DNA from: Parvibaculum sp.
GTDB lineage: Bacteria > Pseudomonadota > Alphaproteobacteria > Parvibaculales > Parvibaculaceae
NCBI GenBank assembly: GCA_019635955.1
Contig: JAHBYL010000007.1
Coordinates: forward strand, 1 to 64,000
Length of the DNA stretch: 64,000 nucleotides
Reading direction: 5' to 3'
Part shown: positions 21,985-63,379 of the stretch, in pieces
Numbering within the stretch: position 1 is the stretch's first letter
Layout of the letters: the number at the start of each line of letters is the position of its first letter
Program-made: the position numbers and the translations under genes
Notes under the pieces: generated by a model
Told to the model about the DNA's origin: nothing
Database searches by the model: none
What the model saw: the letters and a program-made list of their open reading frames with translations, nothing else

Positions 21985-21990
21985 CAGCGG

Positions 21991-22041
21991 CGGGACACCC
22001 CTCCCCACCGAGGGGCAGCTATCTGAAAGGGTAGGTTGCAA
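21991..22041 (+). ncRNA. serC-type leader RNA
   Basis: Two adjacent hairpins immediately precede the serC start. CCCCTC (21998-22003) pairs with GAGGGG (22010-22015). CTATC (22019-22023) pairs with GGTAG (22030-22034), with one G-T pair and a TGAAAG loop. The second stem contains the Shine-Dalgarno region GGGTAGG, so folding would hide the ribosome site. A conserved serC RNA motif at this position in alphaproteobacteria is established (described in the study that found the SAM-II riboswitch). Assignment of this sequence to it rests on position and architecture recalled, not on a covariance search. Its ligand, if any, is unknown. Confidence 0.7.
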
Positions 22042-32426: not shown

Positions 32427-32505
32427 GGGCTCCCCCTTCGCTGTTTCGCTAAAGTCTAGCCGATCTTTCCTTTACCTGCGCAGCTGCCGGAGTCACACTC
32501 CCGGT

Positions 32506-32604
32506 AACCGAGGGGGGCCGACGGCAGTCGGCTGAGATGAGCCTGATACCGGCTCACCACCCTTAGAACCTGATCCGGGTCATGCCGGCGAAGGGACGGG
32601 TTGT
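32506..32604 (+). promoter_or_regulatory. TPP riboswitch (THI element)
   Basis: The conserved aptamer cores are unmistakable. GGCTGAGATGAG at about 32530 is followed by ACCCTTAGAACCTGATCCGG and then CATGCCGGCGAAGGGA at 32581-32596. Flanking AACC and GGTT sequences form the P1 stem. TPP binding to this class usually switches off thiamine-synthesis genes. Here it precedes two small membrane-protein genes and thiC on the same strand. Boundaries are approximate. Confidence 0.97.
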
Positions 32605-32658
32605 TCGTTGCCGTTTGCGCCCGTCCTCTGCCGTCCATGCCCCGCCATTGCGGGAGGG
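32594..32658 (+). promoter_or_regulatory. Expression platform of the TPP riboswitch
   Basis: GGACGGG (32594-32600), which overlaps the aptamer's 3' P1 strand, can pair with CCCGTCC (32620-32626), giving an alternative to the closed aptamer. A second hairpin, CCCGC (32641-32645) with GCGGG (32650-32654), abuts and partly covers the GGGAGGG Shine-Dalgarno of the first gene. With no T-run present, control is probably at translation initiation. The pairing scheme is my reading, untested. Confidence 0.5.
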
Positions 32659-40900: not shown

Positions 40901-41857
40901 TCAGAAATCCGCCAGCGCGTCGCGCCGGGCATCCGCCTGGTCGCGCATGGCGGCTTTCATCGCCTTTTGCAGCTTTTCGAAAGCGCGCACTTCGATCTGG
41001 CGCACACGTTCGCGGCTGATGCCGTAATGCTGGGAGAGGTCCTCCAGCGTCGCCGGCTCGTCCTTCAGCCGCCGCTCGGTGAGGATATGCATCTCGCGCT
41101 CGTTCAGCGTTTCCATGGCGCGGGCCAGCATGTCGCGGCGGAGGTCCATCTCTTCCGCCTCGCCCAGCGTCGCTTCCTGATCGGCCGTGTCGTCCACCAG
41201 CCAGTCCTGCCACTCGCCGCTTTCGCTGTCCTGACGGAGCGGCGCATTCAGCGAATTATCGGGCCCCGCCATGCGGCGGTTCATGGAGACGACTTCGTCC
41301 TCCGTCACGCCGAGGCGTTCGGAAATCTCCTTCACCTGTTCGGGGTGGAGGTCGCCATCCTCGATCGCCTGGATCTGGCCCTTCACCTTGCGCAGGTTGA
41401 AGAAGAGCTTCTTCTGCGCCGCGGTCGTGCCCATCTTCACGAGCGACCAGCTGCGCAGGATATATTCCTGGATCGAGGCGCGGATCCACCACATGGCGTA
41501 AGTCGCCAGCCGGAAGCCCTTTTCCGGCTCGAAGCGCTTCACCGCCTGCATCAGGCCCACATTGCCTTCCGAGATCACCTCGCCGATCGGCAGGCCATAG
41601 CCGCGATAGCCCATTGCGATCTTCGCCACGAGGCGCAAATGGCTCGTCACCAGCTTGTGCGCGGCCTCGGTGTCCTCATGCTCCTTCCAGCGCTTGGCGA
41701 GCATGTATTCTTCCTGCGGCTCCAGCATGGGGAACTTGCGGATTTCCTGCAGGTAGCGCGACAGCGACCCTTCCGGGTTCGGCGCGGGCGCAAGCCTGGT
41801 GCCGGCGGTCTTTGCCACGGCCTTGCTGGCGGGCTTTTTCGCGTCGTCTTCGGCCAT
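40901..41857 (-). CDS. rpoH: RNA polymerase heat-shock sigma factor RpoH
   Basis: RpoH (sigma-32) directs transcription of heat-shock genes. The 318 residues contain region 2 (GNVGLMQAVKRFEPEKGFRLATYAMWWIRASIQEYILRSW). The diagnostic RpoH box region AAQKKLFFNLRK follows, and region 4 has the helix-turn-helix LEDLSQHYGISRERVRQIEVRAFEKL. The ATG at 41857 fits the family N-terminus. An in-frame ATG 69 bases upstream encodes unrelated residues. Alphaproteobacteria often have two RpoH copies, and only one is here. The ftsH gene at 9.9 kb encodes the protease expected to degrade it. Confidence 0.96.
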   Translation of the reverse strand: MAEDDAKKPASKAVAKTAGTRLAPAPNPEGSLSRYLQEIRKFPMLEPQEEYMLAKRWKEHEDTEAAHKLVTSHLRLVAKIAMGYRGYGLPIGEVISEGNVGLMQAVKRFEPEKGFRLATYAMWWIRASIQEYILRSWSLVKMGTTAAQKKLFFNLRKVKGQIQAIEDGDLHPEQVKEISERLGVTEDEVVSMNRRMAGPDNSLNAPLRQDSESGEWQDWLVDDTADQEATLGEAEEMDLRRDMLARAMETLNEREMHILTERRLKDEPATLEDLSQHYGISRERVRQIEVRAFEKLQKAMKAAMRDQADARRDALADF

Positions 41858-42367
41858 TGGGCCCCCAATCCGGCTCGCGGGGCTCCCCTCGGGATTTCGG
41901 GGGTAGGGAGGCGCGAGCCCTGTCATTCGTCATTTGCGAGCCTTTCCCAAGGCTCTCTACCGGATAATACCCGAGGATTGCACTCGGACTATATGACACC
42001 GGAACGCTGGCGGAAACATGACGTTCCGCCCGCCTCGAAGGCATCTTGTCGCGGAAGCAGGGCCCTGAGACCCCCCGGCCGGCAGAGGGCTTATATGGGG
42101 TGGGTGAGGGAGAGTTAAAGGGGGATTTCAGGCGGTTTTGCGCGGTGCTTGGCTTCGACATTCACGTGCGGGAACAAGGCCACCCAACCAAAAGCTCATG
42201 ACCCGCTTTATGCGGGTCATCCACGTCTTACTTCCACGGTTTCTGCTTTCAAGGCGTGGATGGCCCGGACAAGCCGGGCCATGACGGATCGGGGAGGGAG
42301 CCCTGTGCTCTCCGGAGTTTTGCATGCATAGCCAGCGTACCAGCATCCGCACCCAGCGAGGATGGGG
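41858..42367. other. rpoH-rluD intergenic region
   Basis: The 510 bases between the rluD stop and the rpoH start hold no supported gene; open frames here are short and lack family features. The region must contain the rpoH promoter on the minus strand, but I could not identify it confidently. It includes the cruciform repeat at 42198-42282. The rest is GC-rich sequence without strong hairpins followed by T-runs. Confidence 0.4.
42198..42282. repeat. Cruciform-type intergenic palindromic repeat (copy 2)
   Basis: Two perfect hairpins, ATGACCCGC/GCGGGTCAT (42198-42220) and ATGGCCCGG/CCGGGCCAT (42260-42282), flank a pair of arms, CCACGTCTT (42221-42229) and AAGGCGTGG (42251-42259). Together they can form a three-armed structure. 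The organisation, with ATCCA and TGGAT at the inner junctions, matches copy 1 at 23244-23358, although the sequence differs. Confidence 0.78.
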
Positions 42368-43456
42368 TCATTCTCTCTCCAACTCCCTCACCAACTCCGC
42401 CATATCCTCCGGCAACGGAGCGTCGAAGCTTAGATGCTCGCCCGTCACCGGGTGTTCAAACCCCAGGTGCCAGGCGTGGAGTGCCTGGCGGCCTAGGCGG
42501 GCGAGGGCGGCGCGGGCGCCGTCCGATAATTTCGTCGCGCGGGTTTTCATGCCGGTGCCGTAGGTCGGGTCGCCCAGCACCGGGTGGCCGATATGCGTCA
42601 TGTGCACGCGGATCTGGTGGGTGCGGCCGGTTTCGAGGCGGCATTCGACGAGCGAGACGAGACCGTCCACGAATTCCTGCTCCACCTCGTAATGCGTGAT
42701 GGCGCGGCGGCCGGCGGTGTTCTCGTCCTCATCATCGTCGCCCCGCCGCGCGCGCGGCTTCAGCGCCGCCATCTTCATGCGGTTGTGGCTCGAGCGCGCG
42801 ATATTCGCGTCCACCGTGCCGCGCTTCGGCGAAGGCACGCCCCAGACCAGCGCCTTGTAGGCGCGGGTGAGTTTCCCGTCGCGGCCATGCGCGGCGAATT
42901 GCTCCGCGAGGCCCTTATGCGCGCGGTCCGTTTTCGCGACGACCATGAGGCCGGACGTTTCCTTGTCGAGCCGGTGGACGATGCCGGGCCTGCGCTCGCC
43001 GCCGATGCCGGACAGCGTCTCGCCGCAATGGGCGATCAGCGCGTTCACCAGCGTCATGTCGGGATTGCCGGGGGCGGGATGCACGACGAGCCCCGCAGGC
43101 TTCATCACCACGATGAGATCGGCGTCCTCATAGACCACGTCGAGCGGGATTTCCTGTCCCGCCGGCTTCGCGGGCGCGGGCGCCGGCAGCGTCACGGTGA
43201 GCCGCTCGCCTGCCTTCACGCGGGCGGAGGCATCGGTCAGGGGGCGCGGCGGGCTCGCCTCCAGCGCGACATGGCCCTCCTCGATCAGCTGTTTCAGCCG
43301 CGCGCGCGAGGGCGCGGCGGCGGTGCTTTCCTCCGCCGCGAACTTGCGGGCAAGGGCCTCCGTGAGATACTTGTCGAGGCGCATGCCGCTTTCATCGCTG
43401 GCGATGGTGAGCGTGTGGCGCGTTTCTTCGGTCGGGGACAGGACGGCGGACATCAT
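42368..43456 (-). CDS. rluD: 23S rRNA pseudouridine synthase RluD-like
   Basis: RluD makes pseudouridines 1911, 1915 and 1917 in helix 69 of 23S rRNA. The 362-residue protein has an N-terminal S4 RNA-binding domain (MRLDKYLTEALARKF ... LIEEGHVALEA). The catalytic motif GIVHRLDKETSGLMVVAKT carries the nucleophilic Asp. The C-terminal core is RLETGRTHQIRVHMTHIGHPVLGDPTYG. An acidic insertion (RRGDDDEDEN) near residue 240 is unusual. The RluA/RluC/RluD branches are hard to separate by eye, so the symbol is likely rather than certain. Two possible ATGs (43456, 43453) overlap the divergent gene's start. Confidence 0.9.
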   Translation of the reverse strand: MMSAVLSPTEETRHTLTIASDESGMRLDKYLTEALARKFAAEESTAAAPSRARLKQLIEEGHVALEASPPRPLTDASARVKAGERLTVTLPAPAPAKPAGQEIPLDVVYEDADLIVVMKPAGLVVHPAPGNPDMTLVNALIAHCGETLSGIGGERRPGIVHRLDKETSGLMVVAKTDRAHKGLAEQFAAHGRDGKLTRAYKALVWGVPSPKRGTVDANIARSSHNRMKMAALKPRARRGDDDEDENTAGRRAITHYEVEQEFVDGLVSLVECRLETGRTHQIRVHMTHIGHPVLGDPTYGTGMKTRATKLSDGARAALARLGRQALHAWHLGFEHPVTGEHLSFDAPLPEDMAELVRELERE

Positions 43457-43862
43457 GAGCGGGACTATACCACCGGCAAGCGGCGCGTCGCGCGATCAGG
43501 TCGAGCCCGGCCAGCCAATCGACGAGGAGAAGCTCAGGCGCCTCAAACTGATGATGGGCGTGATGTCGGGCTTTCTCGTCCTCACCTTCATGGTGGTGGT
43601 GGCCGCTTTCGTCTGGCGGCTCACGGGGGGCGCGCCGGCGGGCGAGGCCCCGCGCGCCGCGCATCCCGCCGGTTATTTCGGTGTGTCGCGCGTCGCGATT
43701 GCGCCGGGCGAGGCCGTGCGCTCCGTCACGCTGGGCGAGGGGCGGCTTGCGATCCATGTCGCGGGCGATAATGGCGAGGCCGTGATCCTGGTGGACCCGA
43801 AGAGCGGCGCCGAGCTTGGCCGCATCCTGCTCTCGCCGCTCTCGGATTTCGCGGCGCGATAG
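43455..43862 (+). CDS. Small single-pass membrane protein (DUF6476-like)
   Basis: This 135-residue protein has a charged N-terminus (PGQPIDEEKLRRLKLMMGVM), one membrane helix at about 34-55 and a periplasmic beta-rich domain (VSRVAIAPGEAVRSVTLGEGRLAIHVAGDNGEAVILVD). This fits the small DUF6476-type family seen beside RluD-like genes in alphaproteobacteria. That family name is from memory and moderately sure. Its ATG at 43455 overlaps the divergent rluD start codon inside one CATG, so the two genes share no untranslated spacer. Function unknown. Confidence 0.78.
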   Translation: MSGTIPPASGASRDQVEPGQPIDEEKLRRLKLMMGVMSGFLVLTFMVVVAAFVWRLTGGAPAGEAPRAAHPAGYFGVSRVAIAPGEAVRSVTLGEGRLAIHVAGDNGEAVILVDPKSGAELGRILLSPLSDFAAR

Positions 43863-43973
43863 ATCGCGCCCCGGGGCCGAGGGCTCGTAACCGTTCCAGG
43901 CAGTTCAAACAGGATTTGCCGCGCCGATGCTTCGGGGCGGTTTTCCGTGCTGCCGATTTTGGGGGACGGAGGG

Positions 43974-44060
43974 TGCCGCCGGTGCCGGGGGAGGAGGGAG
44001 GATGGCACCGGCGGCATTCTGAAGACGCCCAGTCGGGGAGGAGGTCGACCGGCGTTTCGT
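43974..44060 (-). ncRNA. Candidate sRNA with two anti-Shine-Dalgarno loops
   Basis: Read on the minus strand, two hairpins follow a promoter at 44067-44095. The first has ACGCC/GGCGT and GTC/GAC pairs (44025-44055) with the loop GACCTCCTCCCC. The second has a perfect 13-bp stem (TGCCGCCGGTGCC at 43974-43986 with GGCACCGGCGGCA at 44004-44016) and a 17-base loop containing CCTCCCTCCTCCCCC. Loops with CCUCC repeats mark several alphaproteobacterial sRNA families (suhB/alpha-r14 and the CcsR or cuckoo RNAs), which pair with Shine-Dalgarno sites. No clear T-rich terminator follows, so the 3' end is unknown. Expression is untested. Confidence 0.5.
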
Positions 44061-44066
44061 GAAATG

Positions 44067-44095
44067 AATATCGCCCGTGAATGACATATTGTCAA
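44067..44095 (-). promoter_or_regulatory. Promoter for the candidate sRNA
   Basis: On the minus strand a perfect TTGACA (44090-44095), a 17-base spacer and GATATT (44067-44072, 4/6 match) place a start site near 44060. That is a few bases before the first CCTCC-loop hairpin. No protein gene lies downstream on this strand until rluD, more than 600 bases away. Confidence 0.5.
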
Positions 44096-44380
44096 TCGCC
44101 GTATTTGTGCGTTGCAAAAATTTAACACAGTCTGGCTTGATACCGGAAAGCGCTATAAGTCATTGAATACGCTTGTGTTATTTAGTGAAATGCGGAGTTC
44201 TAGGCCGTAAAAATCGCCCGGGTGCGGTCGAATGACGCAGTGCGGCGGGGCGTGTTTAGGGGCTGACCCCTAGAATTTGGGAGGCCATTCTGCGGGTTCG
44301 GGGGCGGGATGCCGCCGACATGTATGAAGGGGCTTGCGCGCTCCGCCGCGCCGTCCTAGAAGGAGCGCCCGAACTGGTCC

Positions 44381-44456
44381 GTCCCCTTCGTCTAGCGGTC
44401 CAGGACGTCGCCCTCTCACGGCGAAAACAGGGGTTCGAGTCCCCTAGGGGACGCCA
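44381..44456 (+). tRNA. tRNA-Glu (anticodon CTC)
   Basis: The 76-base gene has a full cloverleaf: acceptor GTCCCCT/AGGGGAC, D-arm TCTAGCGGTCCAGGA and anticodon stem TCGCC/GGCGA. The loop is CTCTCAC, so the anticodon CTC at 44415-44417 reads GAG. The T-arm is AGGGGTTCGAGTCCCCT. CCA is encoded. It is a single gene, not part of an array, and the sequence closely follows bacterial tRNA-Glu. Confidence 0.97.
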
Positions 44457-63029: not shown

Positions 63030-63067
63030 AAATGAAAAGCGCCGGCGGAGGGAGGTTCCGCCGGCGC
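63030..63067 (-). terminator. Intrinsic terminator of sciP
   Basis: An 11-bp perfect stem (GCGCCGGCGGA 63039-63049, TCCGCCGGCGC 63057-63067) is followed on the minus strand by TTTTCATTTT. It lies 36 bases after sciP and separates it from fliF. Confidence 0.88.
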
Positions 63068-63103
63068 CCGAGAGGACAGCAAGTACGCAGATACTCTTCT
63101 ATC

Positions 63104-63379
63104 TCACTGCCTGTACTGCTGAACGCGGGTCGCGCGCAGACCCGCAAGCCCATGGCGTTCGATGGACCGCTGCCAGCTCAGGAATTCTTCCACCGTCAGC
63201 GTGTAGCGGCGGCAAGCGTCGTCCAGGCTGAGCAGGCCACCGCGAACGGCGGCGACGACTTCGGCCTTGCGACGGATCACCCAGCGCTTCGTGTCCGGCG
63301 GCGGCAGGTCAGCGATCGTGAGCGGGCTCCCGTCGGGGCCGATCACGTAGTTGACCTTCACGGTCTGGTGTTCACTCAT
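63104..63379 (-). CDS. sciP: CtrA inhibitory protein SciP (DUF1153)
   Basis: SciP is a small helix-turn-helix protein that binds CtrA at promoters and blocks RNA polymerase recruitment. The 91 residues carry the nearly invariant core YVIGPDGSPLTIADLPPPDT, RWVIRRKAEVVAAVRGGLLSLDDACRRYTLTVEEFLSWQ and RHGLAGLRATRVQQYRQ. Its full family length and conservation leave little doubt. It is encoded between flgD and fliF, in the same regulon it is expected to control, and its upstream region has a CtrA-like site. A terminator follows. Confidence 0.96.
   Translation of the reverse strand: MSEHQTVKVNYVIGPDGSPLTIADLPPPDTKRWVIRRKAEVVAAVRGGLLSLDDACRRYTLTVEEFLSWQRSIERHGLAGLRATRVQQYRQ

Follow-up and report, generated by a model that had tools for sequence, protein, structure and literature searches.

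A small RNA encoded on the minus strand of a Parvibaculum contig is best explained as a TetR-repressed riboregulator in a small catabolic regulon of lipid or hydrocarbon type, a reading to which we assign a probability of roughly 0.65. The new part of the finding is the promoter, which carries a palindrome shared with a TetR-family gene. A more comprehensive statement, in which a TetR-type sensor of lipid or hydrocarbon catabolism would control an anti-Shine-Dalgarno sRNA through a common operator, in a family-wide circuit, and in which the sRNA family would be separate from CcsR and alpha-r14, stands at about even odds.

Structure and conservation of the RNA

The RNA and its surroundings are listed in Table 1, where "window" denotes the whole stretch of 64,000 nucleotides that was analysed. 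The sequence-only reading of this region had proposed two minus-strand hairpins with CCTCC-rich loops, the second on a perfect 13-bp stem, behind a TTGACA-N17-GATATT promoter and with transcription starting near 44060. Both hairpins are borne out by reading of the sequence and by folding, the fold includes the perfect stem, and the predicted 5' end agrees with the proposed start. The promoter (44095 to 44067, minus strand) is also present, and is the sole promoter-like site in 43800-44400, where shuffles expect 0.3. The sRNA strand has a minimum free energy of -51.8 kcal/mol (z = -5.25), and an equally good fold was found in none of 200 shuffles. Minus-strand ORFs listed across the sRNA are not preserved among orthologs, because these carry insertions or deletions of one or two nucleotides inside the RNA.

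Table 1. Coordinates of the sRNA, its promoter elements and other features of the window
Feature	Position	Strand	Basis or remark
Small RNA, match to covariance model R1	43967..44061	-	99.4 bits; predicted 5' end ~44060
Hairpin 1, anti-Shine-Dalgarno loop ACCUCCUCCC at 44036-44045	44021..44058	-	fold; covariation in helices 1 and 2
Hairpin 2, 13-bp stem, loop AUCCUCCCUCCUCCCCC at 43987-44003	43974..44016	-	fold; 9/13 pairs with compensatory change family-wide
C-rich, G-poor 3' tail CCCTCCGTCCCCC, instead of a U-tract	43961..43973	-	alignment of relatives
-10 box GATATT	44067..44072	-	GATA-like box at same place in 36/36 orthologs
-35 box TTGACA	44090..44095	-	invariant in 36/36 orthologs
Palindrome TTGACA-N3-TGTCA overlapping -35 box	44082..44095	-	conserved in orthologs; same site upstream of tetR
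Conserved element TTGCAACGCA (YGC-N3-GCA), about -57 to -48	44108..44117	-	part of 21-match promoter pattern
rpoH, downstream of sRNA	40901-41926	-
RluD-type pseudouridine synthase, downstream neighbour	42368..43456	-	Pfam PF00849
DUF6476-type small membrane protein gene, downstream	43455-43862	+	weak match
tRNA-Glu, upstream side of sRNA	44381..44453	+	Rfam RF00005
serC leader	21988-22039	+	above Rfam cut-off
TPP riboswitch	32501-32613	+	above Rfam cut-off

Among genomes of the order with a completeness of 90% or more, model R1 found the sRNA in 27 of 27, representing five genera; a true copy is missing from four genomes, whose completeness is 68-83%. Weak extra R1 matches in G000, G005, G002 and G027 were read by eye and have neither the promoter nor the double loop, and G002 was left out of the sRNA carriers, its match not being a true copy. 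With BLAST, the region matched 25 of 27 Parvibaculum genomes and one further genus, the weakest match (G010, 27 bp) being due to chance. RluD and/or RpoH motifs occur downstream of the sRNA in loci from genera g1-g5, and tRNA-Glu (CTC) is likewise present in all three loci scanned from g1 and g2. A MAPEG gene is a further neighbour.

The sequence-only reading had let its proposal stand or fall with conservation of the stems in relatives. Compensatory-change analysis found the stems to be conserved. A genus-level alignment of 23 sequences (22 from Parvibaculum and one from the nearest sister genus) has 97.8% of cells paired and compensatory changes at 9 of 22 pairs. Its 38 double-change cells were reached by none of 500 shuffles, and its covariation score of 0.260 compares with 0.127 in shuffles (0/500) and 0.02-0.08 when slid. 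A family-wide alignment, itself fitted to the structure, comprises 22 sequences from five genera; compensatory changes occur at 17 of its 22 stem pairs, with 83 double-change cells versus 23.5 in shuffles, none of 500 reaching 83. Slid controls are near zero for covariation, and each family sequence, folded alone, gives the same two hairpins. The loops are invariant while the stems vary: loop 1 contains CTCCTCCC in 36 of 36 orthologs, and hairpin 2 has a CTCC loop in 35 of them. Fixed loops on covarying stems are what a functional RNA that works via its loops should show, and on these sequence comparisons the sRNA is almost certainly a real RNA gene.

Two loci depart from the common arrangement. 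G036 has two identical copies of the sRNA locus, on contigs C5 and C9 (L090, L091), reflecting either duplication or assembly redundancy. In G008 (L057:6444-6640; also L011), loop 2 is exactly inverted, with GGGGGAGGAGGGAGGATGG for CCATCCTCCCTCCTCCCCC and both stem arms intact, which reflects either an inversion of the hairpin loop or an artefact of MAG assembly at an inverted repeat.

Relationship to known anti-Shine-Dalgarno sRNAs

The layout of the RNA had been likened to suhB, alpha-r14 and CcsR sRNAs. No suhB relationship emerged, as an Rfam search of the region had no match to RF00519 even at E <= 5. The resemblance to alpha-r14 and CcsR holds for the layout, with an own promoter and two anti-Shine-Dalgarno loops, but does not extend to membership, both scores being far below Rfam cut-offs. 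The alignment with CcsR1 (RF02791) covers the whole model and scores 24.5 bits against a gathering cut-off of 65.3, and ar14 (RF02344) scores 23.6 bits against 58.8. No genome of the family reaches the CcsR1 cut-off, and no ar14 match above cut-off was found among 40 genomes. The CcsR1 cut-off is strict, since a four-copy CcsR-type array in another order, which served as a control, scores 44-52 bits and also falls short of 65.3. A DUF1127-like ORF was seen by eye beside this control array in G057.

CcsR1-4 of Rhodobacter sphaeroides, like the sRNA described here, consist of two consecutive hairpins, each with a CCUCCUCCC loop, and are of similar length. CcsR RNAs occur as tandem copies that are cut by RNase E from the ccaF1 (DUF1127) transcript, which has an RpoHI/RpoHII promoter (PMC10253847), whereas the sRNA here is a single locus in an rluD-rpoH context, with its own promoter and a TetR-type operator. 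Shared with alpha-r14 are an own sigma-70 promoter with a conserved upstream element, identical anti-Shine-Dalgarno motifs and variable stems. However, alpha-r14 RNAs have three stem-loops, each with an anti-Shine-Dalgarno motif (PMC10746234), while two were obtained in all orthologs folded here, whose palindrome is shared with tetR. NfeR1, the alpha-r14 RNA of Sinorhizobium meliloti, is activated by LsrB and repressed by NtrC, and a transcription factor that binds immediately ahead of its core promoter has been shown to control it (PMC10746234). The NfeR1 loops have been shown experimentally to pair with the ntrB translation start and to silence it (PMC10746234).

Its scores, copy number, hairpin count, promoter and context lead us to file the sRNA as a separate variant, although a distant common origin with CcsR-type arrays is possible. 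The "Cuckoo" RNA family of Reinkensmeier and Giegerich (2015) is described in papers citing it as an umbrella for alphaproteobacterial sRNAs with CCUCCUCCC loops; the CIN1 locus with DUF1127 is absent here. No earlier record of the sRNA was found in Rfam or in the open-access papers searched, and an earlier computational mention of a Parvibaculum copy is possible.

The strongest competing explanation is that the RNA is a diverged, unrecognised CcsR/alpha-r14 ("cuckoo") sRNA under ordinary stress control, whose palindrome merely forms part of a strong sigma-70 promoter. We consider this unlikely. All 36 orthologs retain TGTCA, with no more than one C/T change, in a spacer where sigma-70 needs no sequence, and the full palindrome is found again at tetR, in 38 of 38 cases. 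In favour of such a descent, the RNA's two CCUCCUCCC hairpins are as in CcsR1 and ar14, the sub-threshold scores to both models rise to 33.5 bits (the best CcsR1 score, in a sister genus), and the family-wide model R2 picks up a tandem CcsR-type array in another order at 46 bits. Outside the family, that array and one weak match are all that R2 detects among the 385 class genomes searched. Also against this descent, the sRNA is single-copy with other neighbours, and no DUF1127 gene was found in the window's genome (assembly 87% complete).

Several other Rfam matches were set aside. Those to mir-9223 and STnc450 are at chance level, and an ar14 match at 63034-63151 of the window (26.6 bits) is missing the CCUCC loop pair. 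The other ar14-like matches in the family are different from the sRNA, most being hairpins with C-rich loops in 3' UTRs or terminators. Among such 3' UTR stretches (L106 = G000:C141:16980-17083, L109, L111, L113, L115 and L118), we observe two to three hairpins, CTCCCC-rich loops, a terminator and weak ar14 scores; C-rich terminator loops seem to be common in the family. A sister genus has a three-hairpin ar14-like RNA (L110, G062:C1:11392-11520) that scores 54.4 bits, just under cut-off, and is possibly a true alpha-r14 member.

The palindromic promoter element and a TetR-family regulator

The palindrome is exact in 34 of 36 sRNA promoters, and the other two have one C/T change. Its TGTCA half lies within the sigma-70 spacer and is conserved nevertheless, which points to a DNA-binding protein. 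The upstream element YGC-N3-GCA occurs in 35 of 36 orthologs, the remaining one being truncated by a contig end, and this conservation suggests a further regulator of the sRNA promoter. By analogy with NfeR1, whose promoter has the element TGCA-N6-GCAT (PMC10746234), LsrB/VtlR was considered as a candidate to bind YGC-N3-GCA. A pattern built from the promoter alone (TTGCNNNGCA-N10-13-TTGACANNNTGTCA-N9-GATA) gave 21 matches in 84,980 species genomes. All belong to Parvibaculum or to records named Rhodobiaceae or Alphaproteobacteria, and the two-hairpin RNA follows in every case.

The core TTGACANNNTGTCA is rare, with two to three sites per genome in seven genomes checked, and its reversed control has no matches in six of these (G030 is the exception). 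A TetR-family gene (PF00440) lies downstream of one site in each of the seven. This regulator gene is single-copy in 39 of 40 genomes, and the exact palindrome is found upstream of all 38 tetR orthologs examined, one ortholog per genome. The tetR start codon (ATG) is 35-36 nucleotides past TTGACA in most orthologs, and the predicted sRNA start is likewise 35 nucleotides from TTGACA. At its spacing from the start codon, the TTGACA preceding tetR may be the -35 box of a leaderless mRNA. The window's genome has three copies of the core TGACANNNTGTCA, at the sRNA, at tetR and upstream of a small conserved ORF, and zero sites for the reversed control.

The third site recurs in G021, G013, G019 and G025. 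At this Parvibaculum site (L191, L190, L188; G000:C148:9584 and orthologs), the palindrome has TGC-N3-GCA-like flanks. The small ORF is conserved mainly at its two ends and adjoins MarR- and MBL-like genes.

One palindrome is thus present both at the regulator's own promoter and at the sRNA promoter, as would be expected of a TetR regulon. TetR repressors usually autoregulate through a palindrome overlapping their own promoter. The candidate operator common to the sRNA and tetR, which the sequence-only reading missed, is the most informative feature of the locus, and the TetR protein is likely to be what binds it. Sharing of an operator is no proof of TetR binding, in that TTGACA doubles as a -35 box and both sites might be bound by some other protein. 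Such a protein might control the sRNA, tetR and the catabolic genes described below, TetR being merely one of its targets. This arrangement, which we regard as distinctly improbable, would fit with tetR being one of several operator-bearing genes, with the second element YGC-N3-GCA in the sRNA promoter and with the flanks of the third Parvibaculum site, but across the 38 genomes examined no regulator other than this TetR was found to bear the operator in every one, its gene is nearly always single-copy, and self-regulation is usual for its class. Repression of the sRNA by this TetR is the probable arrangement. A GGAGGA sequence at codons 4-6 of many Parvibaculum tetR genes was considered as a site for pairing with the sRNA in a feedback loop; we make no such claim, because the stretch spans just 6 bp inside the reading frame and the sister genera lack it.

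The sister genera have the core in front of further genes, namely acyl-CoA dehydrogenase genes (three genera) and flavin monooxygenase (FMO)-like, SDR and P450-like genes, the P450-like gene being named from its sequence and not by profile search. Some of the catabolic genes have the operator in just one of the genomes checked. In three genomes that were read, tetR is followed by a gene for a ~350-amino-acid protein without Pfam match and then by an SDR gene. The ~350-amino-acid protein (L202:3431-4465) is conserved in these three genomes. The TetR protein has no curated equivalog match; the nearest are ScbR, Bacillus FadR and FasR, all below cut-off. A ligand that is a lipid, an acyl-CoA or derived from hydrocarbons is therefore plausible. 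Parvibaculum is a surfactant- and hydrocarbon-degrading genus. Whether or not a catabolic signal controls the sRNA, we judge the chances to be equal.

Transcript end and proposed mechanism

Copies from sister genera carry a U-run after hairpin 2, on that same strand; this makes a normal intrinsic terminator and fixes the coding strand. The window copy of the sRNA has no U-tract or terminator-like site, and in Parvibaculum hairpin 2 is followed by CACCCTCCC and more C-rich sequence. This C-rich, G-poor tail could fit with Rho or processing as the way in which the Parvibaculum RNA ends. It is very improbable that the hairpins act in cis, as a terminator or processed 3' UTR, instead of forming a trans-acting RNA: many C-loop hairpins of the family sit in 3' UTRs with weak ar14 matches, and the window copy is without a U-tract, but all 36 orthologs conserve a promoter belonging to the sRNA itself, there is no close upstream minus-strand gene (the tRNA-Glu being on the plus strand), and the downstream DUF6476-type gene is oppositely oriented.

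If the RNA is a TetR-repressed riboregulator, a single-copy sRNA of ~90-100 nucleotides would be transcribed on the minus strand from near 44060. The CCUCCUCCC loops resemble the 16S anti-Shine-Dalgarno sequence, and those of both stem-loops would mimic it. The 16S 3' end was not found in the window's genome, probably because the assembly is incomplete and without an rRNA operon. By pairing with the Shine-Dalgarno or translation-start region of target mRNAs, the loops would lower translation, as with NfeR1 in Sinorhizobium, and on this analogy an anti-Shine-Dalgarno mode of action is likely. Control would be exerted at TTGACA-N3-TGTCA over the -35 box, by the family-wide TetR-type regulator, whose own gene carries this operator at the corresponding promoter position. 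In the presence of the TetR ligand, the sRNA would be made together with the catabolic genes bearing this operator.

Anti-Shine-Dalgarno sRNAs are widespread in alphaproteobacteria, and the controlling signal is known for few, namely RpoH for CcsR and LsrB/NtrC for NfeR1. For the sRNA described here, the DNA itself suggests which regulator and which class of signal may be involved, and the analysis supplies a covariance model, together with the operator consensus and the gene of the regulator, with which the circuit can be tested. If the proposal is true, one ligand would turn on degradation genes while lowering the translation of other mRNAs.
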